From: an uncultured Bacteroidia bacterium
GTDB taxonomy: Bacteria > Bacteroidota > Bacteroidia > Bacteroidales > Prolixibacteraceae
Direction: 5' to 3'
Length of the DNA: 63,887 nt
NCBI GenBank assembly: GCA_903902325.1
Contig: CAIUUO010000019.1
Span: forward strand, 1 to 63,887
The notes under the pieces were generated by a model. It did not search any database and was not told where the DNA came from. It saw only the letters and a program-made list of their open reading frames with translations. The position numbers and the translations under genes were made by a program. Positions 49,635-63,887 of this stretch are shown here, one piece after another. Position 1 is the first letter of the stretch. Each line of letters opens with the position of its first letter.

Positions 49635-51956
49635 TTATGTATTGCAATGACTTCGTATTATCTTCTCCAGATGTTTGAAATCGATCGGTTTAGAAATATA
49701 ATCATTGCATCCTTCATCCATAGCTAACTTTTTGTCGTTCGAAAGTGCCTGGGCCGTTTGAGCAATGATGATTACCTCTTTGTTGAATCGACGGATTTCC
49801 CTCGTGGCATCTTGCCCCGACATCATCGGCAATCTTTGATCCATTAATACCAGATCAATGTCAGGATGAATGTGGCAAAGATGGACAGCATCAGGACCCG
49901 TTACTGCATGTATGATCTCACTGCTGAATTTCCGAATATTCTTATCTAAAACGGAACATGATATTTCATCATCTTCCACAATCAACACCTTGAGCTTTTT
50001 CAATGGTTCCAAACAATGTCCGGACGATAAGGTATTTTCACTAGTTGCCTTGTCGGTTGTTTCGCTTTTGCAGGGAATGGTAAAACTAAATGTTGAGCCA
50101 TTGTTCTCTTCACTCTCTACCCAAATTCGTCCTCCATGCATTTCAATAAGGTCTTTGCAGATAATCAGGCCAAGCCCTGTGCTAATTTCTCCATCAATCC
50201 CCCTTCGACTTGTGTTTATGGTGAGGTCAAACAAGTCCTGGACTAAATCTTTGTTCATTCCTATGCCTGAGTCTCTGACACTGATTTCAACCATTTTCCC
50301 GGAAACTTGTTTGGCCGTGATTGTAATATTTCCATTTTTATGTGTGAATTTTAATGCATTTGAAATCAGATTCCGAACGATACTAGAGATCATATTCACA
50401 TCAGCGAATAGTGTCAGATCGCTGGGAATATCGCAATTGAAAGTAATCTCCTTTCTCTCAGCGACATCCGATATTTGAACAAGGTTCTCATCCAGGATAG
50501 ATTTAAATGTAATTGAATCCAGTGATAAAGTTGTTAATCCCCTTTGCAAACTCGCCCACTGCAAAAGATTTCCAAGTAAGGAGAAAAGGGATGCTGCTGA
50601 ATTACTGATTTTAGCAGAAATGTCCTGAATCTGGTCCATTGTTAAAGAATATAATTCATTGGCCAATATTTGAGACAGACCCAGGAATCCAACGAACGGG
50701 CTTCGCAGGTCGTGGGCAATGATGGAAAAGAATTTATCCTTCACAGAGAGAGCTTCCGCAAGCTCCTGATTTTTGGACTTCAGGGCAATCTCAGCTTTCT
50801 TGCGTCTCGAAATATCAATGAATGAACACACTACTTGATACAAAGTGCCATTGTTGTCATACTGAAGTTCTGCATCCACCCTTAACCAGATACGGTCGTT
50901 CAAAGCGGGTCGATGAACGCCCATTACGATATCATGTACTGAGTGTCCATAGGCAATCGCCTGAGGAACAGGATGTTTATCTCCAGGGAAAGGAGTGCCA
51001 TCCTCATGGATGACATTCCAATCCGGATCGAACGATGTTTTTCCCATAAGCTGGTCTTCGCTGAGACCCAATAATTCAAGCGCTTTGGGATTGCTCATCA
51101 CTATTTTTGCATGTGGATCCTGAAGAATTACGCCTACCTGCATATCTCGTACCAGGTTCTTATACTTCTCTTCACTATTCAGGAGCGCCTGTTCCATCTG
51201 TCTCCTTTCCGTAATGTCAAAAAAGGTCGTAGCAAACATTCCTTTTCCGGGAGAATAGACCGAAATACGAAAATATTTTTCCATTGGAGCAAAATACTGT
51301 TCAAATGAAGTTGCTACACCTGTTTCGGCCACTTCGGCATAAATGTCTAAAAATGGCACTTCATTTGTTTCGAATAGATCACTGGCAAGTTTTCCAACGG
51401 CATCTTCAATCTTGATATTCAGGTGCTTCTCAGAAGCAGGATTAGCTTCCACTATTCGATAATCAATTGCCTTCCCGAATTGGTCATAAACCATCTCGTG
51501 TACATAAACACCCTCCTGCATGGCAGAAAGCAGGGAGCGTGCTTTCGACAAAGCTGTTTCCAATTCTCTTTTGACCTTAAAGTTCCGGGCTGCAGCATCA
51601 ATCCTGGCCAGAAACTCATTTTTGTTGTGAAGCCCTGTAATATATCCGTTCACCAAATCCTTAATTTCTTTGGTATTGTTTTGATTCGTTGTTGGATCGA
51701 AGGATTCCTTGATGAGCAGGATTTCAGGGTGAATTGTATCACTCATAATTATTTTAGCAAGTCTTTTCCCCTCTGCGTCTTCCAACTGGGCATTGAGAAG
51801 CACGATGTCTGGTTTTTCTCTTTCCAGAACCTGTAAACATTCTTCAACGGTCAAGGCAGAAAAGGCATTGTAACCGGCTTCTTTTAGTGTACCTGCCATA
51901 TTATCCAGTATCTCCGGATTATTGTCAGCTATAAGAATGCTAAAGTCTTTTTTCAT
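49635..51956 (-). CDS. Hybrid histidine kinase with an N-terminal pseudo-receiver
   Basis: A 773-residue cytoplasmic protein. Order: receiver-like domain (1 to about 120), two PAS domains (about 146-255 and 258-385), HisKA (FFSIIAHDLRSPFVGFLGLSQIL, phospho-acceptor His), HATPase_c (RNLISNALKFTHKN, RDSGIGMNKDL, TGLGLIICKDLIEMHGG) and a C-terminal receiver (KVLIVEDDEISC, LVLMDQRLPMMSGQD, phospho-acceptor Asp). The first receiver has Asn in place of the phospho-Asp (IVLLNAQLED), so it cannot be phosphorylated normally. No transmembrane segment is seen. It ends the minus-strand block that begins with the gas-vesicle genes. Confidence 0.9.
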   Translation of the reverse strand: MKKDFSILIADNNPEILDNMAGTLKEAGYNAFSALTVEECLQVLEREKPDIVLLNAQLEDAEGKRLAKIIMSDTIHPEILLIKESFDPTTNQNNTKEIKDLVNGYITGLHNKNEFLARIDAAARNFKVKRELETALSKARSLLSAMQEGVYVHEMVYDQFGKAIDYRIVEANPASEKHLNIKIEDAVGKLASDLFETNEVPFLDIYAEVAETGVATSFEQYFAPMEKYFRISVYSPGKGMFATTFFDITERRQMEQALLNSEEKYKNLVRDMQVGVILQDPHAKIVMSNPKALELLGLSEDQLMGKTSFDPDWNVIHEDGTPFPGDKHPVPQAIAYGHSVHDIVMGVHRPALNDRIWLRVDAELQYDNNGTLYQVVCSFIDISRRKKAEIALKSKNQELAEALSVKDKFFSIIAHDLRSPFVGFLGLSQILANELYSLTMDQIQDISAKISNSAASLFSLLGNLLQWASLQRGLTTLSLDSITFKSILDENLVQISDVAERKEITFNCDIPSDLTLFADVNMISSIVRNLISNALKFTHKNGNITITAKQVSGKMVEISVRDSGIGMNKDLVQDLFDLTINTSRRGIDGEISTGLGLIICKDLIEMHGGRIWVESEENNGSTFSFTIPCKSETTDKATSENTLSSGHCLEPLKKLKVLIVEDDEISCSVLDKNIRKFSSEIIHAVTGPDAVHLCHIHPDIDLVLMDQRLPMMSGQDATREIRRFNKEVIIIAQTAQALSNDKKLAMDEGCNDYISKPIDFKHLEKIIRSHCNT

Positions 51957-52001
51957 AATCGAACTATTTTAGCCATATTACTGACCATTGTTATGTTAAA
52001 T

Positions 52002-52394
52002 TTATCCCATCAATTTCCCATATCTTACTATTTTCTCACTTAAAATCTCTTTGCCCACTGGCTTTGGAATAAAATCGCTGAAACCCGCCTCCAAAATTTT
52101 CACTCTTTCGTCGTCCATACAGAATGCAGTGACAGCAATGATTGGGAGTTCATTCCTAAATTGTTTAATTATCCTTGTTGCTTCAATGCCATCCATAATG
52201 GGCATTCTTATATCCATCAATACAAGCCCCAGTTCGGGATGTTCGCGGCAGATTTCCACGGCTTCTTTCCCGTTGTTAGCCTGAAGGGTCGAATAGTTAT
52301 AATTACGTATTAGCATTTTCATATATAACAAGTTACACACATCATCATCAACACAAAGGATGACAAATTGATCAGCTTTTAGAGGATCTTTCAT
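52002..52394 (-). CDS. Single-domain response regulator
   Basis: A 130-residue stand-alone receiver (CheY-like). Acidic pocket FVILCVDDDVCN, phospho-acceptor D61 in LVLMDIRMPIMDG, Thr in PIIAVTAF and the conserved Lys in FIPKPVGK. No output domain, so it acts by protein contact, as phosphate relay or as target for the two neighbouring hybrid kinases. Confidence 0.9.
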   Translation of the reverse strand: MKDPLKADQFVILCVDDDVCNLLYMKMLIRNYNYSTLQANNGKEAVEICREHPELGLVLMDIRMPIMDGIEATRIIKQFRNELPIIAVTAFCMDDERVKILEAGFSDFIPKPVGKEILSEKIVRYGKLMG

Positions 52395-52486
52395 AGTACA
52401 ATTTTAGCCTTATTATCTTCCCGACTTTTCTCAAGCTTTGTATTGCCAGTTGCTTGATTTTTATCACTTAGTTATCTGACAATAAA

Positions 52487-53854
52487 TTATTTCCTGAAAT
52501 ATTTATCAATTAACACCAGTAAATCATGTATCTTAATTGGTTTCGAAATATAATCGTTGCAACCTGCTTCGATAGCTTCTTCCCTGTCGCCGCTTAGTCC
52601 ACAAGCAGTTAGCGCAATGATTATCACCTCTGAGTTAAATTCCCTTATTTTTTTGGTGGCTTTATATCCGGACATTACAGGCATTTGAATATCCATCAGA
52701 ATTAAATCAATGTCGGGATTGTTGCGACAAACTTCAACAGCTTCCAAACCGTTTCTTGCCATTAATATTTCTTTGCCATACTGCTCAATACCAATTGCAA
52801 CGAGTAATTCCGATGATTCATCATCTTCGGCAATTAGTATTTTCAGACCCAAAGCTTCAGAATTTGAGTCATTGTAGGCTATGCCTAGAGTCACATCTTC
52901 ATCAGTTGCCCATTTATTCTGAACAGTTTTGTACGGCAGTGTGAAATAAAATGTTGAGCCAATTTCTTCTTTACTTTCCACCCATATTTTTCCACCAAGC
53001 ATTTCCACATAAGACTTGGAAATGGCCAACCCCAATCCTGCTCCCTGAAAGGCGTTCCTATTCGCTAGATCTGCCTGGATAAACCTTTCAAATATAGCTT
53101 GCTGCCTCTCCCTGGGAATTCCTATACCCTGGTCTCTTACAAAAAATTCAAGCTCGTACGGCTTGTTAATGTATCCAAACTCGATATCGCCTTTAAGACT
53201 GTACTTAATGGCATTTTTTATCAGGTTGGTCAGGATGGCATAAACTTTCTCCTGATCCGTTTGAATGACGGATTGAATGGTTGGAAGAGAATTTTTCATA
53301 CTTAGACAAATTCCTTTCGATTCACATTCAGGTTTGAAAAACAGATAGAGATCTTCAATTTGTTTGTTAATATTTGACTGCACTATTTCAACTGTCATCA
53401 GTCCTGATTCGATTTTTGAAATATCAACGATATCATTGATGATATTTAGCATCCGAACACCACTTTTTTCAATTATGCGTAAATACTTCTGTTGTTGATC
53501 CCCAGAGAGTTCCTGGTTTTTCAACAATTCTGCGAAACCCAAAATGCCATTCATCGGAGTTCTGATTTCGTGACTCATGTTTGCCAGAAATGCAGATTTC
53601 AATCGATCACTCTCCTCCGCTTTTCTTTGCGATTCAAGGAGTTTTTTGTTTAAAAGTTTGATTTTAATATTCTCTTGTCCTATTTCAAAATTATATCGAA
53701 GCTCATCTATCATCATATTTATTCCCATTGCGAGAGCGTCAATAGGGTTGTGTTCCGGCGAGAGTTCCAATTGAACTGAATATTCTCCTCTTGACACACT
53801 CATGATTGCCTGATTAATCAATTCAATTCGTTGCTCTAATTGTTCTTCGTCCAT
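52487..53854 (-). CDS. Hybrid histidine kinase (HAMP-like, HisKA, HATPase, receiver)
   Basis: A 455-residue soluble kinase. An N-terminal HAMP/linker helix pair (VSRGEYSVQLELSPEHNPIDAL) is followed by HisKA (FLANMSHEIRTPMNGILGFAELL, H95), HATPase_c (TNLIKNAIKYSLKG, VRDQGIGIPRERQQ, GAGLGLAISKSYVEMLGG) and a receiver (LKILIAEDDESSE, LILMDIQMPVMSGYKA, Lys in YISKPIK). There is no transmembrane helix, so it needs an input from another protein, for which the STAS-like product 37 bases upstream is a candidate. Confidence 0.9.
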   Translation of the reverse strand: MDEEQLEQRIELINQAIMSVSRGEYSVQLELSPEHNPIDALAMGINMMIDELRYNFEIGQENIKIKLLNKKLLESQRKAEESDRLKSAFLANMSHEIRTPMNGILGFAELLKNQELSGDQQQKYLRIIEKSGVRMLNIINDIVDISKIESGLMTVEIVQSNINKQIEDLYLFFKPECESKGICLSMKNSLPTIQSVIQTDQEKVYAILTNLIKNAIKYSLKGDIEFGYINKPYELEFFVRDQGIGIPRERQQAIFERFIQADLANRNAFQGAGLGLAISKSYVEMLGGKIWVESKEEIGSTFYFTLPYKTVQNKWATDEDVTLGIAYNDSNSEALGLKILIAEDDESSELLVAIGIEQYGKEILMARNGLEAVEVCRNNPDIDLILMDIQMPVMSGYKATKKIREFNSEVIIIALTACGLSGDREEAIEAGCNDYISKPIKIHDLLVLIDKYFRK

Positions 53855-53891
53855 AAGATTTTTAATAATTCGATCTGGTACATATCTTCTT

Positions 53892-54290
53892 TTAATCAGC
53901 TATCCACGCCCTTGCTTCCTTCTCTGTCATAAAGAATCGTTGGTTTTTTTCACTGGAGAACCCAATCACAAATGACGCAATCAGTCGGGCAACAGGATTT
54001 AGTCCAAAAATTGCAACCTTGTTACATTTTCCATTTTCACTTAATTCATTCCAGGCTAATCTGGCTCTCCGTGAATTTTTGCCACATCTGTTTAAATCTA
54101 TAAGAAAATTTATTTTCCCATCAACCAATTTAAATAACCTAAGACACAAATCTTTTGTGACCATTGCAATTTCATCCGTTTGGTCGCCATCTACGGTAAC
54201 ATGAATAATAGTATTATCACAGAGAATTATTCTAGTCTTTCCGATACAATATTCACTTTTGCTTATTTCTTCTATGTCAATTTTTTTCAT
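53892..54290 (-). CDS. STAS-like small protein
   Basis: A 132-residue protein of alpha/beta pattern with strands IGKTRIILCDNTIIHVTVDG, KINFLIDLNRCGKNSRRARLAW and NKVAIFGLNPVARLIASFVIG. The layout (strand, short helix with residues for phosphorylation or ligand, strand) resembles STAS/SpoIIAA-like proteins that occur beside hybrid kinases in Bacteroidota. The family match is weak. Its place between the gvp genes and the kinases suggests a link of sensing with gas-vesicle expression or assembly, but this is only positional. Confidence 0.5.
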   Translation of the reverse strand: MKKIDIEEISKSEYCIGKTRIILCDNTIIHVTVDGDQTDEIAMVTKDLCLRLFKLVDGKINFLIDLNRCGKNSRRARLAWNELSENGKCNKVAIFGLNPVARLIASFVIGFSSEKNQRFFMTEKEARAWIAD

Positions 54291-54364: not shown

Positions 54365-54874
54365 TTATTCCCTTTTGATCGAAACAAAATCATATGGTGG
54401 CCAGGGACAAGTAGTCTCAATGTAAAAGCCGGAATCTTCGTTCATTTCATTCAGTTTATTGACTGCATTTATAAAGGCAACAATATTTATTTTTTTAACA
54501 AAGACTGTGGCATCTAGAATCATTGTATCCTCCCTTCCAATATATTCTCTTGGGAGAAGGTTATTGATGATGACTGACTCGCCAAATTTTTTGAATTCAA
54601 CATAATATTGTTGTCTGTATTTTTTGCAAAGCCGATCAATTACCTTGACGATCAGTTCGGTTTTTTTTCTGCTTAGCAAAAAAGCTTTGCCCGGTGAACT
54701 TGCCAGAATTTGCTTTTCCAGGAGTGCAGTTTCCTCGCTTAATTCATCAATTTTTTTGGTTACCAATTTTCGATCGCAATATACTTTAAACGACCACTCT
54801 TCCATTCCTGACATAGGATGAAAATTTTCAATCAATGAATCTGAAATACAATTAACATAGATCAGATCATTCAT
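54365..54874 (-). CDS. Short GvpF/L-related gas-vesicle protein
   Basis: 169 residues, against about 260 for normal GvpF/L. It contains the GvpF/L middle and end: EEWSFKVYCDRKLVTKKIDEL (typically EWGVKVY), SSPGKAFLLSRKKTEL, a helical stretch, and FYIETTCPWPPYDFVSIKRE (typically GPWPPY-x-F). The N-terminal nucleotide-like domain with YIYGI is missing; the first 20 residues are unlike the family. It is therefore a natural C-terminal half or a shortened gene. Confidence 0.8.
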   Translation of the reverse strand: MNDLIYVNCISDSLIENFHPMSGMEEWSFKVYCDRKLVTKKIDELSEETALLEKQILASSPGKAFLLSRKKTELIVKVIDRLCKKYRQQYYVEFKKFGESVIINNLLPREYIGREDTMILDATVFVKKINIVAFINAVNKLNEMNEDSGFYIETTCPWPPYDFVSIKRE

Positions 54875-54898
54875 TCTAAGTTGGATTAATAATTAAAA

Positions 54899-55171
54899 TT
54901 ACTGGTCGTCGCTATCCATTCCTGCGAATGAACTTAGACGTTCGAAGGATGAAATTTCCAGATTATCATCCAACTTGACCGAATAAAAGAGTCGCACCTG
55001 TTTTGGAGGCATATTCAATGACTTTAGAAACGAATCATCTTCGAATACTTCTGCCACAGCATTCCATGATTCGTTAACTTTTTGAATTTTAATGACTGTC
55101 ACATCATAACAATTAATATTCTCTTTCAGAAAATTAACTACCGTTTTTTTTACATCAATTATATTTCTCAT
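54899..55171 (-). CDS. gvpO: GvpO-like gas-vesicle protein
   Basis: A 90-residue protein with the layout of GvpO: helix with lysines first, then strands WNAVAEVFEDDSFLKSLNMPPKQVRLFYSVKLDDNLEISSFERL. The closing part (YSVKLDDNLEISSFERL) fits the GvpO ending Y-x-V-x-LD-x-G-x-L-x-x-Y-x-R. An unusually strong Shine-Dalgarno AAGGAGG sits at 55179-55185, seven bases before the ATG. In other gas-vesicle clusters GvpO is needed in small amounts for assembly. Confidence 0.75.
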   Translation of the reverse strand: MRNIIDVKKTVVNFLKENINCYDVTVIKIQKVNESWNAVAEVFEDDSFLKSLNMPPKQVRLFYSVKLDDNLEISSFERLSSFAGMDSDDQ

Positions 55172-55178
55172 TTTTTGT

Positions 55179-55185
55179 CCTCCTT
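55179..55185 (-). promoter_or_regulatory. Strong Shine-Dalgarno site of gvpO
   Basis: AAGGAGG seven bases before the ATG at 55171 on the minus strand. Such a site is exceptional in Bacteroidota and is not seen before most other genes in the window. Confidence 0.7.
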
Positions 55186-55222
55186 GTTCGTTAAATGTTA
55201 GGATGGTTGCAAGGAATGTTTC

Positions 55223-55423
55223 CTACTCCCCTTTTCCCTTACTCTTTATGCCTTCTTTTTTCATCTGGTGTCCGCAGACCGGACAAAATTTATATTCAAA
55301 CATGAATCGCCAGCCATGACCACAATCGGGGCAGATCACATCGAATGGCAGACCACAATCGATGCAAAATTTTTCATTTCCACCTGTCGTTTTTCCACAT
55401 TTCGGACATTTAAAAGCGCTCAT
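55223..55423 (-). CDS. Double zinc-ribbon protein of the gvp cluster
   Basis: 66 residues from the ATG at 55423. Two zinc ribbons with four CxxC units: CPKCGKTTGGNEKFCIDCG and CPDCGHGWRFMFEYKFCPVCG. The upstream extension of the frame into gvpG is not used: an AAAAGGAGG site directly precedes the ATG at 55423. It lies between gvpG and gvpO. Such proteins often act as small partners that hold other proteins; its role here is unknown. Confidence 0.85.
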   Translation of the reverse strand: MSAFKCPKCGKTTGGNEKFCIDCGLPFDVICPDCGHGWRFMFEYKFCPVCGHQMKKEGIKSKGKGE

Positions 55424-55427
55424 TTTT

Positions 55428-55436
55428 CCTCCTTTT
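55428..55436 (-). promoter_or_regulatory. Strong Shine-Dalgarno site of the zinc-ribbon gene
   Basis: AAAAGGAGG lies four bases before the ATG at 55423 and directly after the gvpG stop codon, and fixes the start. Confidence 0.7.
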
Positions 55437-55673
55437 CTATTTGTTTTGTTTTTCTTCCCTGATATTTGACAAAAGCTTAAGCAATTCATCTTCTCTTCTG
55501 TCGTATTCTTCCTCATCGATTTCATCCATCTCAAATTTCAATTGAAGCGCCATCAGCCTTTCTTTTATGGTGCCTTCATCTGAAGTTTCCTTTTCAATCA
55601 CCTCATTGATTTTCTCAGCGAGAAAAAGTACTCCCTTGAAGGGCGCCATCAGCAGGTCATCGATTAAAAACAT
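55437..55673 (-). CDS. gvpG: Gas-vesicle protein GvpG
   Basis: A 78-residue protein. The N-terminus MFLIDDLLMAPFKGVLFLAEKINE matches the GvpG start (L-x3-P-x-KG-x-x-x-x-A-E-x-I), and the C-terminal half is the charged helix pair KERLMALQLKFEMDEIDEEEYDRREDELLKLL. It is an accessory protein binding other assembly proteins. It follows a GvpF/L gene by one base and has a moderate AAGGA site seven bases upstream. Confidence 0.9.
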   Translation of the reverse strand: MFLIDDLLMAPFKGVLFLAEKINEVIEKETSDEGTIKERLMALQLKFEMDEIDEEEYDRREDELLKLLSNIREEKQNK

Positions 55674-55674
55674 C

Positions 55675-56457
55675 TTAAATTCCTTTCGTATTAATAACCA
55701 GATTTACAAAATTATAGGGCGGCAATGTACCTACATATTTGAATACCATATATTTGCCGTATTTTTCATCCAAATCGTTCACGGCTGCGTCAAATTCAGG
55801 TTCAGACGTTTGTTTGATTAAAAAGGCCACATTAATAATCATCATTTCTCCATAGTTATCGTTAATTTTAACATCATCCGCCAATGGATTAAGCGCGTTC
55901 ATTAGTATGCTTTTATAATTTTCTGTCTCCTTTTTGAGCGCCTCAGCAACCATTTCGCCGATTTTCATTCGCTGATAGTGGGTTTTGTCGGCCGGAAGGT
56001 TCATCAATTTAGCGCGCATTGACTTAATTTCCTCGTATTTTTCGATGATACTTTCATAAATAGGTGCTTCATGCGCTAATACCTTAAGTCCGAGTTCTTT
56101 CTTCCCTTCCATCTTATTCAGCATTTCATCAAATTTAGTATAATCCTTTTCAAGGATTCGCAGGATGCCGGCGTTGTCATTGTGTTCTGAAATAGTTGAA
56201 AACCGAACCGGCAAAACAGTAAACTGCTTCATCACTTCCTCCAGAACTTTTTCATGTGTGATCATGTTAACCCTCCGCGCTTCATAGATGATAACCGGTG
56301 AATTGCTGACGATAGCCGTAATCCCTTTAAAACTAATTCCATACACCAAGTCGGCTCTTGTCCCCATGCCAATCGGACCATACTCTATCGGAGCATCATG
56401 CCTGATAATTCCATAAATGTATTTTCCTTCTTTGGATGTTTCCGTTTCATTGATCAT
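55675..56457 (-). CDS. gvpL: Gas-vesicle protein GvpF/L family, copy nearest gvpG
   Basis: 260 residues, normal size. N-terminal domain: EGKYIYGIIRHDAPIEYGPIGM and VYGISFKGITAIVSNSPVIIYEARRVNMITHEKVLEEVMKQFTVLPVRFSTI (the beta-alpha-beta unit with the H-x-x-V motif). C-terminal domain ends KYVGTLPPYNFVNLVINTKG (family: GPLPPY-x-F). Compared with its neighbour at 56541-57314 it shares the order and spacing, so they are duplicates. GvpF/L contact GvpA and act in nucleating the vesicle. Confidence 0.9.
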   Translation of the reverse strand: MINETETSKEGKYIYGIIRHDAPIEYGPIGMGTRADLVYGISFKGITAIVSNSPVIIYEARRVNMITHEKVLEEVMKQFTVLPVRFSTISEHNDNAGILRILEKDYTKFDEMLNKMEGKKELGLKVLAHEAPIYESIIEKYEEIKSMRAKLMNLPADKTHYQRMKIGEMVAEALKKETENYKSILMNALNPLADDVKINDNYGEMMIINVAFLIKQTSEPEFDAAVNDLDEKYGKYMVFKYVGTLPPYNFVNLVINTKGI

Positions 56458-56540
56458 ACTAATTTCATATTTACTATTTTATTGAAAGTGTTCCCTATTC
56501 GTTCCAGCAATTAATGACCCATCATTACAGTATTTGATCT

Positions 56541-57314
56541 TCACAATTCCCATTTTTCGGGAAAAATTTTCAGGTCAATGAAGTTGAATATTGGCAAAGG
56601 AGTAGCATAGATAAAATTGCAACGTCCCTCGTATTTGGTTCCCAGATCGGTCATCATATTGTCGAATTCAACTTCCCTTCCACTGTTTACCAAAAATGCG
56701 GTATTCATAAACATGGCATCCCTGTTCGTATTGTTCTGTTTAAAATCAAACACTGATCTGCGGAATGTGTCAAGCACATTACCTGCTTCTGCGCTTTTCT
56801 TTTCGGTCAACGCATTTGAAACAAGATTGCCGGCTTCAGCTATTTTTGCATTTCTTTGTTCACTATCCGGCAACAGTTCAATTTGGGCTCGGATTTCATG
56901 CAACTCGGCATATTCTTTGTCAATCTCATTGTAAATGACAGCCATGTTATTCCAGGTACCCCTGACATTCATTTCCACTTTGTTTTCGAATTGTCTGAGT
57001 AACTCCATAAATTCGCTGTATCTCCGGTTTAGCAGGTTTCTTATTTCATCTGGTGTGGCAGCAATAATACCAAACCTGATGGGCAGAACGCTTCTGAATT
57101 CCTTCATTACCACCTCAATAACTTTTTGATGTGCCATCATGTTTTCGGGGTTAACATCGAACCTGCTGAGCGGATGGTCGCTTACGACCATGCACAAACC
57201 CTCGATTCCAATGGATGAGACCAGGTCGCCCCGGCCACCTATCCCAATCGGTCCCAGATTAATATCGTAATCCGATTCTATAATGCAATAAATATATTTA
57301 CCGTCTCGTTGCAT
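56541..57314 (-). CDS. gvpL: Gas-vesicle protein GvpF/L family, second copy
   Basis: 257 residues. N-terminal DGKYIYCIIESDYDINLGPIGIGG, MVVSDHPLSRFDVNPENMMAHQKVIEVVMKEFRSVLPIRFGII, and C-terminal FIYATPLPIFNFIDLKI, all of the GvpF/L pattern. Starts one base after the J-domain fusion gene and is followed by an 83-base gap, the largest inside the gvp part. Confidence 0.9.
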   Translation of the reverse strand: MQRDGKYIYCIIESDYDINLGPIGIGGRGDLVSSIGIEGLCMVVSDHPLSRFDVNPENMMAHQKVIEVVMKEFRSVLPIRFGIIAATPDEIRNLLNRRYSEFMELLRQFENKVEMNVRGTWNNMAVIYNEIDKEYAELHEIRAQIELLPDSEQRNAKIAEAGNLVSNALTEKKSAEAGNVLDTFRRSVFDFKQNNTNRDAMFMNTAFLVNSGREVEFDNMMTDLGTKYEGRCNFIYATPLPIFNFIDLKIFPEKWEL

Positions 57315-57315
57315 A

Positions 57316-58350
57316 TTATTCTCTGATTTTTACCAGGATGAGGTTCCCGGAGCCCTTGTTCATAGAAGTCGATTTATCTTCCAATAAATGCTTAGTTGCA
57401 GTCGCATATTCGATCATGAGATGGTATGCCTTGCTGATTTTATTAAATTCTTCTTCATTTCCAGTTCCTGATTGTGTGTCCGGGTGAAAAATTTTTGATT
57501 TTATCAGATAGGCCTTCTTAATTTCATCTTGTGAGAATTCCACATCCAGTCCAAGCACTCTTTGGGCCTGTTCAATCCCATTTTTATGAATTTCCTTAGC
57601 TTCAATGGTAAAAAAACTGTAACACGGTAGCGGACCCACCAATTTAAATTTCAGATTTCCGCTAAATTCCTCATCGAGCAGATCAATCATTTGTTCAAGT
57701 ACAAGATCCTTATTTTTGCGAATTAGAATTGCTGAATTTGTAACCATTTGATCATTCATGGTTTCATGCTTTTTGATCTCTTCACTGAAATTGGACAAGG
57801 CATCCAGAATTCTCAATTCAACCTGTTTGTTTTTTTCCCTCAACTTCTCCTGAACCAACATTCCGATCATAACCTGATTTGCTGCTGAAGGAGATTCTGG
57901 GTTATTCAGGATTTCATTCTTCATGGCGATAATTTCAGGATGACCGGCTATCTCACCAATTACCGATGAAAAATCGGCCCAGGTTACTGCGATATCAATT
58001 TCTGTAAGGTCTTCAACCTTTTTCAGGATATCCAGCATCAAATCATATCCATTGGAAAGTATTTGAATGACCTCCTCCGTTGAGCCTACAACGGTACCGA
58101 TCCGCATTGGAACAATCGTACTTACTCCATTCTCAACCAGATATTCGATTGTTTTCTGATGATGAACCAGCAAATGACCCAGCAACTCGCTATTAGTGAA
58201 ATCTATATCCAGATTATCCTGATCGGATACGATAGCGGAAAGGGATTGAAAGGAAATGGCGTAAATCGCTCTATTTCCCAATGATTTCAACCTTTCGGTA
58301 ATGAATTGATTTGGTACAATTCCGTAAATATATTTGGCTTTTGTTGGCAT
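57316..58350 (-). CDS. gvpL: GvpF/L protein fused to a C-terminal J-domain
   Basis: The protein has 344 residues. Residues 1 to about 252 are GvpF/L: KAKYIYGIVPNQFITERL, LLVHHQKTIEYLVENGVSTIVPMRIGTV and FKLVGPLPCYSFFTIEAKEI. Residues about 262-325 are a J-domain (RVLGLDVEFSQDEIKKAYLIKSKIFHPDTQ with the HPD tripeptide intact, then EEEFNKISKAYHLMIEYA). J-domains stimulate Hsp70 ATPase, so this copy could bring DnaK to the forming vesicle. A short tail (SGNLILVKIRE) ends it. It follows the CDC48-like gene after 49 bases. Confidence 0.92.
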   Translation of the reverse strand: MPTKAKYIYGIVPNQFITERLKSLGNRAIYAISFQSLSAIVSDQDNLDIDFTNSELLGHLLVHHQKTIEYLVENGVSTIVPMRIGTVVGSTEEVIQILSNGYDLMLDILKKVEDLTEIDIAVTWADFSSVIGEIAGHPEIIAMKNEILNNPESPSAANQVMIGMLVQEKLREKNKQVELRILDALSNFSEEIKKHETMNDQMVTNSAILIRKNKDLVLEQMIDLLDEEFSGNLKFKLVGPLPCYSFFTIEAKEIHKNGIEQAQRVLGLDVEFSQDEIKKAYLIKSKIFHPDTQSGTGNEEEFNKISKAYHLMIEYATATKHLLEDKSTSMNKGSGNLILVKIRE

Positions 58351-58399
58351 ATTATTGTTATAAGTGATTAATATCTAAAGTTTTTAAATTTTCTGGCGC

Positions 58400-60556
58400 T
58401 TACTGTTTCGATGCATTTTGTTTGATTACTAGTTCAATCGCTTGTTCAAAGTGGGAAGCCAGAATGGAAATTTCTCCTGTTTCATCCACCGATTTTGCAT
58501 ATGAATTTTCAATTAATGTTCGAATAGCGAGCATCGCAGCTTTACGGCAAATGAATCCAATGTCAGATCCGGTAAGGTTTTCTGTTTTCTGGGCCAGATC
58601 CTTCAGATTCACCTTTATACAAAGAGGTTTGTCACGGGTATGGATTTCAAATATCTTTTCCCTTGTTTGAACATCGGGTAGTGGTAATTCGAAAATCAGG
58701 TCAAAACGGCCGCTTCTTAACAATGCAGGATCGATTAAATCGATTCGGTTGGTTGCTGCCAAAACGATGACTCCTTTCAGGTCTTCGATTCCATCCATCT
58801 CTGTAAGAAATTGGCCAATAACCCGTTCGATCACACCGGAGCCTGAACCGTCATTGCTTCGTCGTGGGGTGAGGCTGTCTATTTCATCCAAGAACAGGAT
58901 GCAAGGCGAAGCTTGTTTAGCCATCCGGAAGAGTTCACGAACGCCCTTCTCAGATTCCCCTATAAACCGACTCAAAATCTGTGGCCCTTTTACGGATATG
59001 AAATTTACTCCGCTTTCACTTGCAAGTGCTTTCGCGAGATAGGTTTTGCCTGTTCCCGGTTTTCCATGAAGGATAATTCCCTTTGGTGGTTTGGTATCTG
59101 CCTTTGTAAAAAGATCGGCATATTTCAATGGCCATTCCACCGTCTCCTTCAAAGCTTCCTTGATCTCATCCAACCCTCCGACATCCTCCCATTTCACATC
59201 AGGGACTTCCACGAAAACCTCCCGTATGGCGGAAGGTTCGACTTCTTTCATGGCATCCATAAAATGATCCATGGTTACTTCAAGTGACATCAGCAATTCG
59301 TAAGGGATTTCTGCCATTTCGAAATCAATTTTCGGCAAAATCTTTCTTAATGCCGTCATGGCTGCTTCCCTTGCCAATGCTTCAAGATCTGCACCTACAA
59401 AACCATGGGTTATTTCGGCCAGTTTTTCCATGTCGACATTCATGGAAAGGGGAATTCCCCTTGTATGAATGTGAAGAATTTCCAGCCTGCCCTTTTTATC
59501 GGGAATGGAAATGGAAATTTCCCGATCAAAACGACCTGGCCTTCTCAATGCAGGATCGATTGAGTTTGGAATATTGGTTGCCCCAATTACGATAACTTTC
59601 CCTCTGGACTCCAAGCCGTCCATCAGAGATAAAAGCTGGGCAACCACACGTTTTTCAACCTGTTTCTCCCCGCCCATATCTTCCCGCTTTGGAGCAATTG
59701 CGTCTATTTCATCAATAAATATAATGGAAGGGGCGTGTGCCTGGGCTTCTTCAAAAAGTTTACGGATTCGTCCTTCGCTCTCTCCATAAAATTTCCCCAT
59801 GATCTCAGGTCCGGAAATATTAATGAAATAGGCATCCGTTTCATGTGCAACTGCCCTGACAATAAGCGTTTTGCCTGTTCCTGGAGGGCCATATAAAAAG
59901 ACTCCTTTTGGAGGTTGTACGCCAAGGCGTTCAAAGATTTCAGGATACTTCAACGGAAGCTCAATCATTTCCCGGATACGTTGAACCTGGTTTCCCAATC
60001 CACCAATATCTTCATAGGTTACCCTGCTCTTGCGCTCGCCTTCCTGCTTAACAAGTTCAAGTTGGAAAGAGGTATTTGGATGTATCAGCACAATGCCTTC
60101 CGGATTCGTACCGGTTATGGTATAATCCACTGAACGTGACCCAAATAAATTGGCTCTAACTTTGTCCCCTTTCGACACGGGTATCCCATTAATCAACGAA
60201 CCTATGTATTTCGCATCATCAGCCTTAAACAGGGATCCGGATTGTGTATCAGGCTTAAGTTTGATTTTTGCAGCCTGTCTGCAGGTAGTTTTACTGATCT
60301 TAACTTTCTCATCAATTCCAGTCTGCGAATTTTCCCTGGTCATACCATCCATCTGAATAATTCCTTTTTCCCTGTCTTCCGGATAGCAAGGCATAACTTT
60401 GACCGGAGTTGCTCGTTTGCCCTCAACCACAATTATATCGCCACTCTCCAGACCGAGTTCCTTCATGTCTTTGGGATCAATTCTGGCGATTGATCGGCCC
60501 ACGTCTTTGACAAGGGCTTCTTTTGCACGGAGTACTATCTGTTCCTGGATATTCAT
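58400..60556 (-). CDS. CDC48/p97-like double AAA+ ATPase
   Basis: 718 residues: CDC48 N-domain (about 1-180; DVGRSIARIDPKDMKELGLESGD, VMPCYPEDREKGIIQMDGM), AAA1 with Walker A 223-230 (GPPGTGKT) and Walker B IIFIDEIDAIAPKR (DE at 282-283), and AAA2 with Walker A 498-505 (GKPGTGKT) and Walker B LFLDEID (554-560). Sensor and Arg-finger motifs (GATNIPNSIDPALRRPGRFDRE and AATNRIDLIDPALLRSGRFD) are present in both, so both rings should be active. It is an unfoldase or segregase. Its start overlaps the ArsA-like gene by four bases, tying it firmly to the gvp cluster. Confidence 0.95.
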   Translation of the reverse strand: MNIQEQIVLRAKEALVKDVGRSIARIDPKDMKELGLESGDIIVVEGKRATPVKVMPCYPEDREKGIIQMDGMTRENSQTGIDEKVKISKTTCRQAAKIKLKPDTQSGSLFKADDAKYIGSLINGIPVSKGDKVRANLFGSRSVDYTITGTNPEGIVLIHPNTSFQLELVKQEGERKSRVTYEDIGGLGNQVQRIREMIELPLKYPEIFERLGVQPPKGVFLYGPPGTGKTLIVRAVAHETDAYFINISGPEIMGKFYGESEGRIRKLFEEAQAHAPSIIFIDEIDAIAPKREDMGGEKQVEKRVVAQLLSLMDGLESRGKVIVIGATNIPNSIDPALRRPGRFDREISISIPDKKGRLEILHIHTRGIPLSMNVDMEKLAEITHGFVGADLEALAREAAMTALRKILPKIDFEMAEIPYELLMSLEVTMDHFMDAMKEVEPSAIREVFVEVPDVKWEDVGGLDEIKEALKETVEWPLKYADLFTKADTKPPKGIILHGKPGTGKTYLAKALASESGVNFISVKGPQILSRFIGESEKGVRELFRMAKQASPCILFLDEIDSLTPRRSNDGSGSGVIERVIGQFLTEMDGIEDLKGVIVLAATNRIDLIDPALLRSGRFDLIFELPLPDVQTREKIFEIHTRDKPLCIKVNLKDLAQKTENLTGSDIGFICRKAAMLAIRTLIENSYAKSVDETGEISILASHFEQAIELVIKQNASKQ

Positions 60557-61506
60557 TTTTTATCTTTAAATAGTTGTTTGCGAAGTTGGTTCAGGGAGTC
60601 TAGTCCTTTAATTTCTTCCGGAAATACCGGAATCTCGACCCTGTTTAAATAGCTGAAATTTTTGTTGATTTCTTGTAAGTATTTTAATTGACCTGCTTTT
60701 CTGCGTTCGCAAAAATCACATCCATCCGAAGTCATTACATTGTTTATGATGATTTGCCGTGCAACTATTTCGGATTTACCTAAATCGGCCAATAACCGGC
60801 TAGTCTCTGAAATAGCCATCGATTCCGGAATGCAGACCGGAATAAACTCACATCTGGTTTGATCTCTCAGTATATTTTCGATCCTTTTGACCGTTTTCTT
60901 CAGATTAAGCAAAAAAGTATCAACCTCATCCACCTTGTAAGAACCTGCAAAACTAGTAACCATGTAGCGGTATTTCCATCTCATTTTTGCCGCTACCTTT
61001 ATCCATGCATCCAATAATTTAGGAGATGAAATAAGTCGCAAAACGTGACCAGTAGGTGCTGTATCTACCACATATTTTTCAAATTGACCTTCTTCAATAA
61101 AATCAATGATTGTCTTGAAACTCATAATTTCATCAATACCCGGGATTGACAAGGTCAACATATCGTCTATATCTTCATTGTCAAAGCTTGTAGAAGTTAC
61201 CAGGAGTTTTTTAAGTTCACTGTGATGTTCCGACTTGAATTTTGACAGCGCTTCTTCTGCAACTACTTCAATGGCCGACAGTTTGCTTATTCCAGAAACT
61301 TCAACCACTTTAAAACCAATCTGTTGTTCAAGACAATCGGATAATGAATGTGCCGGATCCGTGGAAATCAGCAGTGTTCTGAAATCCTCTGACAACTCAA
61401 GGGAAGTGGCAATGGCGGAGCTGGTTTTTCCCACACCTCCTTTCCCACCAAATATGATGAGTTGAAGATCTCTTTCCCCCAAACCATTGAGTGTCATTTT
61501 ATTCAT
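60553..61506 (-). CDS. Get3/ArsA family ATPase of the gvp cluster
   Basis: 317 residues, size of Get3. Deviant Walker A with signature Lys: IIFGGKGGVGKTSSAIATSLEL (K22 and K27), then LISTDPAHSLSDCLEQQIG (switch I), VVDTAPTGHVLRLISSP (switch II) and the late CDFCERRKAGQ, whose CxxC pair equals the zinc clamp of the eukaryotic Get3 dimer. No arsenite metal-site Cys triad is evident, so a targeting/chaperone role for hydrophobic proteins is more likely than arsenite export. It lies one base from the Hsp20 gene. Confidence 0.92.
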   Translation of the reverse strand: MNKMTLNGLGERDLQLIIFGGKGGVGKTSSAIATSLELSEDFRTLLISTDPAHSLSDCLEQQIGFKVVEVSGISKLSAIEVVAEEALSKFKSEHHSELKKLLVTSTSFDNEDIDDMLTLSIPGIDEIMSFKTIIDFIEEGQFEKYVVDTAPTGHVLRLISSPKLLDAWIKVAAKMRWKYRYMVTSFAGSYKVDEVDTFLLNLKKTVKRIENILRDQTRCEFIPVCIPESMAISETSRLLADLGKSEIVARQIIINNVMTSDGCDFCERRKAGQLKYLQEINKNFSYLNRVEIPVFPEEIKGLDSLNQLRKQLFKDKK

Positions 61507-61507
61507 A

Positions 61508-62029
61508 TTATTTGCCTATCCTGATCTCAAGTATCCCATTGGTAAATTTGTGCTGCAGATTTGAATTGTTCAATTGAAGCGGAAGCAGTAACTCTTTCCG
61601 GTAAATTCTGCTCTTACCGAAGGCAGATATTTCAAGGATGTCATCCTTCAGATCAATCTGTATGTCACTGTCTTCAACACCAGGCATCTCAGCAAGAATA
61701 ACGATCTCATTCTCTTCATCAAAAACATCGGTAATTGGTTCCCGCTCTGCCTCCACTTTTGGCCCTTCCGGGGTTTTTTTGATATTACCGAATGTCTCAA
61801 CTTTGGGTGGGCCGCCACCTGCCGTATTGATCGTAAAGCCATATACACCTTTCATACCTTTTTTCAGGTGATCAAAATTGATCTCACCTTCTTTGCATAT
61901 TGTCCTATTTTCCTCCAATTTTCCTGCAATATCCACCAATTTTCCAACTCCTTTGAATAAATTTCCAAGGCCGAAAAGGTCAAAAATGGCTTCTTCATTT
62001 TTCTCTTTGTCGTTATCTTTTTGCGTCAT
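61508..62029 (-). CDS. gvpH: GvpH-type small heat-shock protein (Hsp20)
   Basis: From the ATG at 62029 it has 173 residues; the frame extends upstream into gvpJ but that part is not conserved. The N-terminal half (IFDLFGLGNLFKGVGKLVDIAGKLEE, MKGVYGFTINTAGGGPP) is typical of gas-vesicle Hsp20 proteins; the C-terminal half is the alpha-crystallin domain (EREPITDVFDEENEIVILAEMPGVEDSDIQIDLKDDILEI, ending in HKFTNGILEIRI). In halophilic archaea the gvp-linked GvpH has this fold. It probably prevents aggregation of the hydrophobic shell protein. Confidence 0.88.
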   Translation of the reverse strand: MTQKDNDKEKNEEAIFDLFGLGNLFKGVGKLVDIAGKLEENRTICKEGEINFDHLKKGMKGVYGFTINTAGGGPPKVETFGNIKKTPEGPKVEAEREPITDVFDEENEIVILAEMPGVEDSDIQIDLKDDILEISAFGKSRIYRKELLLPLQLNNSNLQHKFTNGILEIRIGK

Positions 62030-62054
62030 AGCTTTTGATTTTAAGAAAATAAAA

Positions 62055-62357
62055 TTATTTTGATTTGTTAAGTGATTCCAATTTCGCGAGTCGTGCTTCG
62101 ACCAATTTCTGCTGATATTGTTCCTCTTCCCTTGCTTTTGACGAGAGATAGGGATCGTCCTGCCACCAATTGATACCCATTTCCAGAGCTTTGTCAACGC
62201 CACACACCAAAAGCCGTATCTTGATGGTCAATAAATCCACATCTGCGATTTTGATCTGGATATCACCAACGATAACAATCCCTTTGTCTAGCACGAGTTC
62301 CAAAACATCCCGAAGTGATGAATTTCCTGTTGAGGTATTTAGTTTTGCTTCTGTCAT
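62055..62357 (-). CDS. gvpJ: Gas-vesicle protein GvpJ
   Basis: 100 residues. GvpA-family core LRDVLELVLDKGIVIVGDIQIKIADVDLLTIKIRLLVCGVDKA (18-60), followed by EMGINWWQDDPYL, which is the GvpJ-specific continuation rather than the end of a major shell GvpA, and a charged C-terminal helix. GvpJ is a minor shell protein thought to sit at the conical tips. No GvpA is seen in the window. Confidence 0.92.
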   Translation of the reverse strand: MTEAKLNTSTGNSSLRDVLELVLDKGIVIVGDIQIKIADVDLLTIKIRLLVCGVDKALEMGINWWQDDPYLSSKAREEEQYQQKLVEARLAKLESLNKSK

Positions 62358-62384
62358 AATATAAATTTTTGTACCGTATAAGAG

Positions 62385-62918
62385 CTATCTCAGTGTTCCA
62401 AGAGAGCCCAGATTAAGATTAAGATCATCCTCTTTCAGACCAAAAACCAATCTAAGTTCTTCTATTTTAGTTTCAATTGCTTCAAGGTTCAATCCAAGCT
62501 TCTGTGTTTCTATCTGAGTTAATTCGTTCCTTTCCACCCTTCTCATAGCTTCTTTTTCCACTAGATCAACAATGAGTTTGATTAATGTCAAAACCAATTG
62601 CGCCAAACCACCCTCTATTTGCTCCGAATTTTCAGCGTTGATCATCTGATTGATATGTTCCTGAGCTTTCCAAATCTGGCTTTCCAATTTCTGCATGTAA
62701 ATCTCATCACCTAATTCGTTTACATGAACTTCATCCACTCTTTTCCCCTGCTGTATCGAAAGTCTTGACAAGGAGACAATGATGACCCGAAGGGAAATTG
62801 CAAGCATATCCATATCGGCAATTCGAATAATGATATCACCATGAACTACAGCCCCTTTGTCTATAATGACATCGAGCGCATCAACCAACGTTGCTTTTTT
62901 ATTTTCTGAATCAGTCAT
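62385..62918 (-). CDS. GvpA/J-domain and GvpK fusion protein
   Basis: 177 residues with two domains. Residues about 9-53 form a GvpA/GvpJ-type shell domain (LVDALDVIIDKGAVVHGDIIIRIADMDMLAISLRVIIVSLSRL). After a helical linker, residues 96-177 are GvpK: SEQIEGGLAQLVLTLIKLIVDLVEKEAMRRVE, then LGLNLEAIETKIEELRLVFGLKEDDLNLNLGSLGTL. Both parts have conserved cores, so it is a real fusion and not a sequencing join. GvpK is a required assembly protein of unknown mechanism; the fusion would fix it next to a shell-like subunit. Confidence 0.92.
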   Translation of the reverse strand: MTDSENKKATLVDALDVIIDKGAVVHGDIIIRIADMDMLAISLRVIIVSLSRLSIQQGKRVDEVHVNELGDEIYMQKLESQIWKAQEHINQMINAENSEQIEGGLAQLVLTLIKLIVDLVEKEAMRRVERNELTQIETQKLGLNLEAIETKIEELRLVFGLKEDDLNLNLGSLGTLR

Positions 62919-62930
62919 AATTCACAAATG

Positions 62931-63734
62931 TCAGGCAAAATGATACGAAGGCCAGGGGCCAGAAATTTCAAGTTCAATTCCAAATGGGCTGAATCTCTTT
63001 TTAAATTCTTCCGTTTTACTTTTGAATTCTTTTAATCGCTTTTCTTCCAATAAAAAAAAACCATTTAAAATCATCTCATTGGGAGACATGGTAAAATCTT
63101 TATCGAGTATTTTCGCCTTGATTTGAGTGACAGCAGTGCCCGCCAGACCTTCGCTTATTTCGGAGGTGATTTTAGCCAATTCCTGCTCTTTTATCTCTTC
63201 GGCCTTATAATCTATTTTCTTCTTTGCAAAAAACGCCAACCCTTTAGGTAGTGCTTCTGCTTCTCTTTTTTGGATTAAGAGCTCCTCATTTTCTGATCCC
63301 AGAAATTCATCAAAAACCTTCTCATCCAGATAGACCTTCACTCCCCATTCCTCTCTTCCAATTAGATTTTTCAGACTTTCCCTGAATTTTTCAAGATTCT
63401 CATAGAGGGTTTCCATCAATTTTTTACGGGTTCTGAAAATTACTCCGAATTGCATGGGTATTACAGGGATTAAAGAAGAATGATCAGGTCTCATGGCCCG
63501 TTCAATGACCTTTTCGTGTATCTGAGCCTTTCCTTTAATCCACCCCAGATCCTCATTGGCTTTTTTCTGAATCTCTGCCGAACTGAATTCTTCTATGGAT
63601 ACCTCACTGGTTACGGCCTCCAATTCCAGGAAAGGAATAATCAGAATCTTTTCCTCTTCCGACATGGTCCTTTGAACTTCGAGTGCTTCATCGCGCCGAA
63701 GCCTGATACAATAAAGATATAGCCCGGTTTCCAT
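62931..63734 (-). CDS. gvpL: Gas-vesicle protein GvpF/L family, first copy
   Basis: 267 residues. N-terminal GLYLYCIRLRRDEALEVQ, then ILIIPFLELEAVTSEVSIEEFSSAEIQ, IHEKVIERAM, SLIPVIPMQFGVIFRTRKKLMETL (family: P-x-RFGT), REEWGVKVYLDEKVFDE, and the ending LEISGPWPSYHFA. This is the most typical GvpF/L of the five. It starts 22 bases after an unidentified upstream gene. Confidence 0.93.
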   Translation of the reverse strand: METGLYLYCIRLRRDEALEVQRTMSEEEKILIIPFLELEAVTSEVSIEEFSSAEIQKKANEDLGWIKGKAQIHEKVIERAMRPDHSSLIPVIPMQFGVIFRTRKKLMETLYENLEKFRESLKNLIGREEWGVKVYLDEKVFDEFLGSENEELLIQKREAEALPKGLAFFAKKKIDYKAEEIKEQELAKITSEISEGLAGTAVTQIKAKILDKDFTMSPNEMILNGFFLLEEKRLKEFKSKTEEFKKRFSPFGIELEISGPWPSYHFA

Positions 63735-63756
63735 ACAATTTGAGTGCTAATTGGGA

Positions 63757-63887
63757 TTAATAGTCGATCGACATAGTTTTGAATTCCGGTTTTATCACCT
63801 CTTTCTTCTTCGGTTTGGTTGTATCCGTATCCCGAGAGTGCATTTGTCCGGCCTTCGCGTCATTGTATTGCTGGATTTCCTTCAGCC
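63757..63887 (-). CDS. C-terminal end of an unidentified gene
   Basis: Only 42 residues before the stop codon lie in the window (LKEIQQYNDAKAGQ ... KPEFKTMSIDY). The tail is hydrophilic and basic (TTKPKKKEVIKP). It is not recognisable; being 22 bases before GvpF/L it probably belongs to the same transcript and may be another gas-vesicle gene. Confidence 0.55.
   Translation of the reverse strand, partial: LKEIQQYNDAKAGQMHSRDTDTTKPKKKEVIKPEFKTMSIDY

Follow-up and report, generated by a model that had tools for sequence, protein, structure and literature searches.

A recurrent gas-vesicle gene cluster variant with CDC48, a Get3-type ATPase and a GvpF-J-domain fusion in an uncultured Bacteroidia bacterium

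The gas-vesicle (gvp) gene clusters of the model organisms Halobacterium, Anabaena and Priestia (Bacillus) megaterium have a core of gvpA, F/L, G, J, K and N in common, and the model-cluster gene lists in the sections of PMC9501494 that were available held gvp genes only, with neither CDC48 nor a J-domain fusion. In those sections and in the available part of PMC11445434, GvpF was described as binding GvpA and as its proposed or probable chaperone, GvpG as displacing GvpF, and GvpN as being required for elongation. The part of Castillo and Saier 2010 (PMC2963123) consulted here reported ArsA homologues in gvp clusters from four phyla, several of them with Hsp20, and proposed that an ArsA-family ATPase energises a biogenic step. 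The present analysis concerns an array of thirteen minus-strand open reading frames (ORFs) packed tightly at 54365-63734 of a 63,887-base stretch of DNA (the window), which is the entire contig C19 of a 4.79-Mb genome, in 304 contigs, of an uncultured Bacteroidia bacterium. Like this cluster, those of Polaribacter irgensii and Pelodictyon luteolum (Bacteroidetes/Chlorobi), as given in the same part of PMC2963123, contain gvpN, several L/F genes, gvpG, gvpJ, gvpK, hsp20 and an ArsA-family gene; the gvp-linked ArsA proteins described there have two domains and about 600 amino acids (aa), whereas the protein encoded here has one domain, 317 aa and the features of Get3. An ArsA homologue was also reported there in Anabaena/Nostoc clusters, which brings the cyanobacteria nearer to this layout than one would judge from the gvp gene lists. 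A term search of the available text of PMC2963123 found no mention of CDC48 or DnaJ, and no description of CDC48, a J-domain or Get3 in gvp clusters was found in the literature searched, which covered few subscription papers; the Cdc48 in the part of PMC6107691 consulted was a nonspecific column contaminant.

The array is a genuine gas-vesicle gene cluster. Judged against curated Pfam and NCBIfam cut-offs, five GvpF/L proteins (cut-off of PF06386, GvpL_GvpF, 23.6 bits), GvpG, GvpJ, a GvpA/J-GvpK fusion, Hsp20, a Get3/ArsA ATPase, CDC48, a J-domain and a zinc ribbon were all recovered above threshold (Table 1), in agreement with an earlier reading of the window (the original prediction); by Pfam, the accessory set GvpF/L, G, J and K is complete in the window. 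The best explanation of the cluster, to which a probability of roughly 0.6 is given, is that it encodes a chaperone line for the shell proteins that works beside GvpN. The gene identities, the conservation of motifs, the conserved gene order and the co-occurrence of CDC48 with GvpK are directly supported, and from them and from family functions we infer the interactions and steps of such a line.

Recurrence of the chaperone set was determined in 71 loci obtained from a scan of GTDB species genomes with the GvpN of the window genome, and annotated with models made from the proteins of the window and of contig C94 of the same genome. By NCBI phylum, 54 loci belonged to Bacteroidota, 16 to eleven other named phyla, and one was unassigned. 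Loci were counted as usable if their sequence continued for 7.5 kb or more beyond gvpN, which was true of 42; the other 29 end earlier and were left out. Hsp20 was found in all 42, Get3 in 40, CDC48 in 40 and the fusion of GvpF/L with a J-domain (GvpF-J) in 41, and the exact order Hsp20-Get3-CDC48-GvpF-J was present in 36 (29 of 32 Bacteroidota loci and 7 of the 10 others; six phyla in all), a proportion that applies to relatives of this GvpN and not to all gvp clusters. The exact-order loci outside Bacteroidota came from Ignavibacteriota (2), Planctomycetota (2), Spirochaetota (1), Nitrospirota (1) and Fidelibacterota (1); the GvpN of the last (L036) is 93% identical to that of the window genome, and this locus may be a mis-binned contig. 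The set is therefore not unique to one genome; CDC48, Get3 and GvpF-J lie together in gvp clusters of several phyla. The description of the composition as unusual in the original prediction did not hold, given this recurrence, the publication of an ArsA-family ATPase and Hsp20 in 2010 and the annotation of CDC48 in a plasmid gvp cluster. The usual layout finishes with a gvpA-like gene, F/L and gvpK; the variant of the window, in which F/L and the A/J-K fusion stand right behind gvpN and a small ORF, was common to five of the 71 loci (L013, L022, L025, L037 and L044).

Co-occurrence was then counted across 395 genomes of the window's phylum, where a full CDC48 was one over the family cut-off, with two candidates scored per genome. 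GvpK was found in 31 genomes, full CDC48 in 27 and both in 25; full CDC48 was thus present in 25 of 31 GvpK-positive genomes compared to 2 of 364 GvpK-negative genomes (Fisher p = 1e-31, kinship not corrected). As 16 of the 31 GvpK-positive genomes belong to one genus (g60), the comparison was also made by genus in a hand count, which gave 9 of 12 GvpK-positive and 1 of 159 GvpK-negative genera. In 17 of the 25 genomes CDC48 and gvpK shared a contig and lay no more than 15 kb apart, and in G028 the cluster was split by a contig end. Six GvpK-positive genomes had no full CDC48; G362 and G272 had fragments, G280 a piece at a contig edge, and in G189 the gvpK contig ends early. The two GvpK-negative genomes with full CDC48 were G231, with no gvp gene near it, and G237, a member of family f30. 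In the f30 locus L079, gvpA, gvpN, Hsp20, Get3 and CDC48 are together and gvpK is on another contig; in the f30 loci L079, L077 and L088 the gas-vesicle genes are spread over at least two places, with CDC48 apart from gvpK. Among 247 Thermodesulfobacteriota genomes, 16 had GvpK (one of them, G398, being the seed genome), of which 11 had full CDC48 and two more a fragment, counts that are descriptive only.

These results bear on the explanation that general stress genes came to lie beside gvp genes by chance and have no role in the vesicle. Although Hsp20, the J-domain and CDC48 do belong to general chaperone families, such an accident is extremely improbable in view of an order that is identical in 36 of the 42 loci and spans six phyla, the strong co-occurrence of CDC48 with GvpK, the fusion of the J-domain to GvpF, and a motif in the Get3 of the cluster, RWKYR, that was absent from seven paralogue loci.

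The GvpF-J protein is the second of the five GvpF/L proteins in transcript order. All 48 J-domain fusions, that of the window included, have the HPD motif (100% in the HPD alignment columns), and so do three further fusions from other groups (L091, L107 and L108). In the model of the window protein (predicted local distance difference test, pLDDT, 86.4) the motif is situated between helices II and III, modelled at residues 274-288 and 299-320. The best fold matches were the GvpF crystal structures 6l5d and 4qsg; J-domain structures came further down the list (E = 0.02 and weaker), and the sequence match to DnaJ was clear. DnaK is encoded in the same genome (865.9 bits). Because GvpF binds GvpA and probably chaperones it, the J-domain would most simply be a recruiter of DnaK for GvpA.

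The ATPase encoded next to hsp20 has a single ATPase domain with a KGGVGKT P-loop and passed the TIGR00345 cut-off of 135 bits; it also matched Pfam ArsA_ATPase (256.5 bits). RWKYR, on the helix after the DTAPTGH loop, was present in every one of the 64 single-domain ORFs with 250 aa or more in the loci, in none of seven two-domain ArsA-type ORFs, and in none of the seven other Get3 paralogue loci examined, which came from three of the same genomes and are a subset of a longer list of paralogue places. From structures of Get3 with its clients, we take the helix that bears it to be part of the client groove. The CxxC motif, which binds zinc in Get3 dimers, is CDFC in this protein. Its model (pLDDT 86.3) had 3zq6 as best fold match (E = 4.2e-25), and the 50 listed fold matches were Get3/TRC40 throughout, some of the top ones with bound transmembrane segments. 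If the protein were an ArsA-type transport ATPase, the cluster might be coupled to the export of an ion or metalloid, a view in keeping with the Pfam family name, with the top match in a PDB sequence search (the two-domain ATPase ARSA1, 5zme) and with the two-domain form of the gvp-cluster ArsA homologues reported in the part of PMC2963123 consulted. This is very unlikely; the protein has one domain, its next sequence matches and nearest single-domain solved relatives are archaeal (3ug6 and 3zq6, named Get3 and TRC40 in the fold list), its listed fold matches are as given above, and no transporter or ArsR Pfam family was matched by any of the thirteen array proteins. An identity as ArsA proper was rejected on the basis of these relatives and fold matches. 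Judged from sequence and model, the ATPase is of the Get3 type rather than the ArsA type, and client binding is predicted. The four Thermodesulfobacteriota clusters examined (L109-L112) have a two-domain ArsA-type gene in place of the single-domain Get3.

The window CDC48 has a CDC48_N domain (PF02359, 94 bits) and two AAA domains, and exceeded the TIGR01243 cut-off of 802.65 bits; its best solved chain was a 'VCP-like ATPase' (5g4f, 714.6 bits). By pattern, two Walker A motifs were present in 50 and two Walker B motifs in 45 of 52 long CDC48 ORFs, and pore-loop motifs in 51 (D1) and 47 (D2). A C-terminal HbYX motif was seen in none of the 52, three of which run off the locus so that their end is unseen, and docking to a 20S proteasome through such a motif was rejected on this ground. 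In a tree made by a quick method from 38 of 77 ORFs, the gvp-linked copies clustered (5 changes compared to 8.2 in shuffled data; 6 of 500 shuffles as low); they did not form one clade in this tree, which has long branches and no archaeal outgroup, and a single origin is not claimed. At L112:5063-7750, in a draft Thermodesulfobacteriota genome, a single frame joins a C-terminally shortened CDC48 to GvpF/L; this fusion may be a deletion or an assembly fault and was not used as evidence.

The cluster extends from C19 onto C94, a contig of 5,913 bases. The window ends inside a small ORF, the N-terminal 61 codons of which end C94 (locus L005); when aligned to the intact ORFs of L013, L022 and L025, the two pieces abut with one Arg codon between them, and for this reason the contigs are taken to be adjacent. 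Reading on beyond position 63887, as the original prediction had proposed, yielded gvpA (C94:1785-1991, PF00741, 59.1 bits) and a full GvpN (C94:4723-5640, TIGR02640, 348.6 bits, cut-off 266.8). The hint in that prediction that the other ATPases replace GvpN therefore fell away, and absence of GvpN was ruled out. C94 also encodes a sigma-54 response regulator, two coiled-coil-like (CC) proteins and a zinc-finger protein of the DnaJ CXXCXGXG kind (DnaJ-Zn). As read from the sequence of both contigs, the most likely gene order is regulator, gvpA, CC, CC, DnaJ-Zn, gvpN and small ORF (on C94, the small ORF spanning the join), followed by gvpF/L, gvpJ-K, gvpJ, hsp20, get3, cdc48, gvpF-J, gvpF/L, gvpF/L, gvpG, zinc ribbon, gvpO-like and short gvpF/L. 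The C19 array is thus the second part of an apparently intact Bacteroidota gas-vesicle operon. The two CC proteins lie between gvpA and gvpN (L005:2200-4108), a place held elsewhere by gvpC; all 43 usable loci had such ORFs upstream of gvpN, and none of those tested against Pfam was above a family cut-off. Upstream of gvpA, a -24/-12 site of the sigma-54 type was found with a strict pattern in 12 of the 55 loci having 150 or more bases there (shuffled expectation 0.17) and with a relaxed pattern over 220 bases in 17 of 49 (expectation 0.31); none was found upstream of gvpA in the window's own genome.

Table 1. Gas-vesicle array of the window, in window positions, with family matches.
Feature	Position	Strand	Match or remark
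Small-ORF C-terminal part, 42 codons, GvpV-like by position only	63757..63885	-	cut by contig end
GvpF/L, 267 aa	62931..63734	-	PF06386 164 bits
GvpA/J-GvpK fusion, 177 aa	62385..62918	-	PF00741 42.1 bits at 10-47, PF05121 80.4 bits at 96-176
GvpA/J-family minor shell protein, 100 aa	62055..62357	-	PF00741 54 bits
Hsp20/alpha-crystallin protein, GvpH-like by position	61508..62029	-	PF00011 26.3 bits, cut-off 20.8
Single-domain Get3/TRC40-type ATPase, 317 aa; P-loop, CDFC, RWKYR	60553..61506	-	TIGR00345 247 bits
CDC48/VAT-type AAA+ ATPase, 718 aa; N domain, D1, D2	58400..60556	-	TIGR01243 923 bits
GvpF/L with C-terminal J-domain (GvpF-J; HPD present)	57316..58350	-	PF06386 152 bits, PF00226 40.9 bits
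GvpF/L, 257 aa	56541..57314	-	PF06386 177.4 bits
GvpF/L, 260 aa	55675..56457	-	PF06386 209 bits
GvpG	55437..55673	-	PF05120 70.6 bits
Small double zinc ribbon protein, 66 aa	55223..55423	-	PF12773 33.3 bits
GvpO-like protein, 90 aa, weak call	54899..55171	-	PF05800 20.6 bits, below cut-off 25
Shortened GvpF/L, 169 aa	54365..54874	-	PF06386 73 bits, profile 99-244 of 245

With the preferred starts, the spacing of the array ranged from a 4-bp overlap to 83 bp; longer ORF versions of the zinc ribbon and Hsp20 genes overlap their neighbours more, and for Hsp20 alignment with relatives made the start at 62029 more plausible than that of the longest ORF (62203). The tight minus-strand array of the original prediction was upheld; its GvpO is a weak call, the match being below the cut-off, and of five GvpO-like counterparts, four scored 16.6-18.2 bits against PF05800 and one had no match. 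ORFs matching the zinc ribbon model were found in 20 of the 73 sources searched, the window included. In the last GvpF/L of the array, alignment with L037, L044 and L052 revealed an internal, in-frame loss of about 100 residues; of 36 counterparts that follow a gvpO-like gene, 34 are stop-to-stop ORFs of 263-297 aa and two run past the locus edge. This gap, together with a full GvpF-J in only three of eight genomes of the genus (G000 included), might indicate that the cluster is decaying and that the organism may no longer make vesicles. Such decay is improbable, since the other array ORFs are open across their family models, the O-like one alone scoring below its cut-off, GvpA and GvpN are open on C94, and four F/L paralogues are still full-length.

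Past the end of the cluster, at 49635-54290, the same strand encodes possible regulators, namely a pair of hybrid histidine-kinase-like ORFs, a SpoIIAA-like protein and a lone response regulator; the ORF at 49635-51956 was assigned by reading alone. A tandem array at 43759-45551 (375-bp unit, 4.8 copies, 73% matches) perhaps encodes a repeat protein.

In the proposed chaperone line, the GvpF/L paralogues would bind the hydrophobic helices of nascent GvpA and of the GvpA-like minor proteins, and GvpF-J, by way of its HPD motif, would bring in the cell's own DnaK; a separate protein with CXXCXGXG zinc fingers would substitute for the zinc region that a DnaJ has and that is missing here. On account of family function, Hsp20 would serve as a holdase, the gvp-specific Get3 would shield a hydrophobic helix in its ATP-dependent groove and pass the subunit to the growing rib, and CDC48 would pull apart misassembled or aggregated subunits, while GvpN would drive elongation, as elsewhere. 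The complete folding and targeting set of the original prediction is plausible in so far as an intact J-domain on GvpF, a Get3-type ATPase and a complete CDC48 are present; that they act on GvpA is a step we infer. By analogy, many gas-vacuolate bacteria could possess a dedicated chain resembling the eukaryotic tail-anchor pathway, in which GvpF-J would bring DnaK to nascent GvpA, a gvp-specific Get3, whose helical part bears the invariant RWKYR patch, would transport the subunit, and a dedicated CDC48 would remodel or extract it at the rib, beside GvpN. This extension is tentative; if true, Get3 would here be delivering to a protein shell and not to a membrane.

The added ATPases and chaperones might instead serve quality control, with CDC48 and Hsp20, GvpF-J and DnaK dismantling collapsed or aggregated shells so that GvpA is reused or degraded. 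CDC48-family enzymes are unfoldases or segregases, the pore-loop motifs are kept, and the absence of CDC48 from L056 and G309 is what a recycling role would allow. In most usable loci, however, Get3 and Hsp20 lie between gvpJ and cdc48 in one array with the assembly genes, and the J-domain is fused to an assembly factor, GvpF, which makes a purely corrective role rather doubtful.

Several observations weigh against the chaperone line as the explanation of the cluster. Only 47 of the 64 ORFs, a count that includes short ones, keep the Get3 CxxC motif, which is hence not strict. L037 lacks Get3, L056 lacks CDC48, and L071 lacks Get3, CDC48 and GvpF-J, losses which suggest that the chaperone parts improve rather than enable assembly. 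G064 and G309 carry gvp genes with no full CDC48 near them, and in seven genomes, all of family f30, CDC48 is away from gvpK. Get3-family genes passed the cut-off in 30 of the 31 genomes with GvpK, where copies were often numerous, and no enrichment is claimed for them. Among the plasmid records with GvpN (7 of 25 examined), the stretches of Halobacterium pNRC100, Natronorubrum and Spartinivicinus showed neither CDC48, Get3 nor a J-domain fusion, in contrast to the window. Because some gvp clusters do without them, the chaperone parts would be helpers and not essentials.

With this qualification, the chaperone line provides candidates for the question of how the very hydrophobic GvpA stays soluble and enters the growing shell. 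Conserved across Bacteroidota and present in individual loci of several further phyla, the layout points to specific, separable candidates (HPD, RWKYR and CDC48) and might help heterologous gas-vesicle expression. The GvpN that seemed to be missing sat on the next contig, a caution for readings of single contigs.

Among the other plasmid clusters, a CDC48-like gene was found in Methylosinus, in Methylocella (as three ORF pieces) and in Nostoc (with a two-domain ArsA gene), and GvpF-J in Octadecabacter. On plasmid pMSC49b of Methylosinus sp. C49 (L093), gvpA, N, F/L and G occur together with an A-K type fusion, H and what the record labels a 'CDC48 family AAA ATPase'; unlike the window, the stretch, truncated where the record begins, shows neither Get3 nor a J-domain fusion. 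A cultured relative, Polaribacter filamentus ATCC 700397 (L052), a species with gas vacuoles, carries the identical gene set in the same order, CDC48 and GvpF-J included. It differs from the window in that gvpK is separate and at the end, and this assembly has get3 (L052:12234-13153) broken into two ORFs that overlap, through sequencing error or decay. The gas-vesicle cluster with CDC48 and GvpF-J is a recurrent, under-described variant of the known gvp system.

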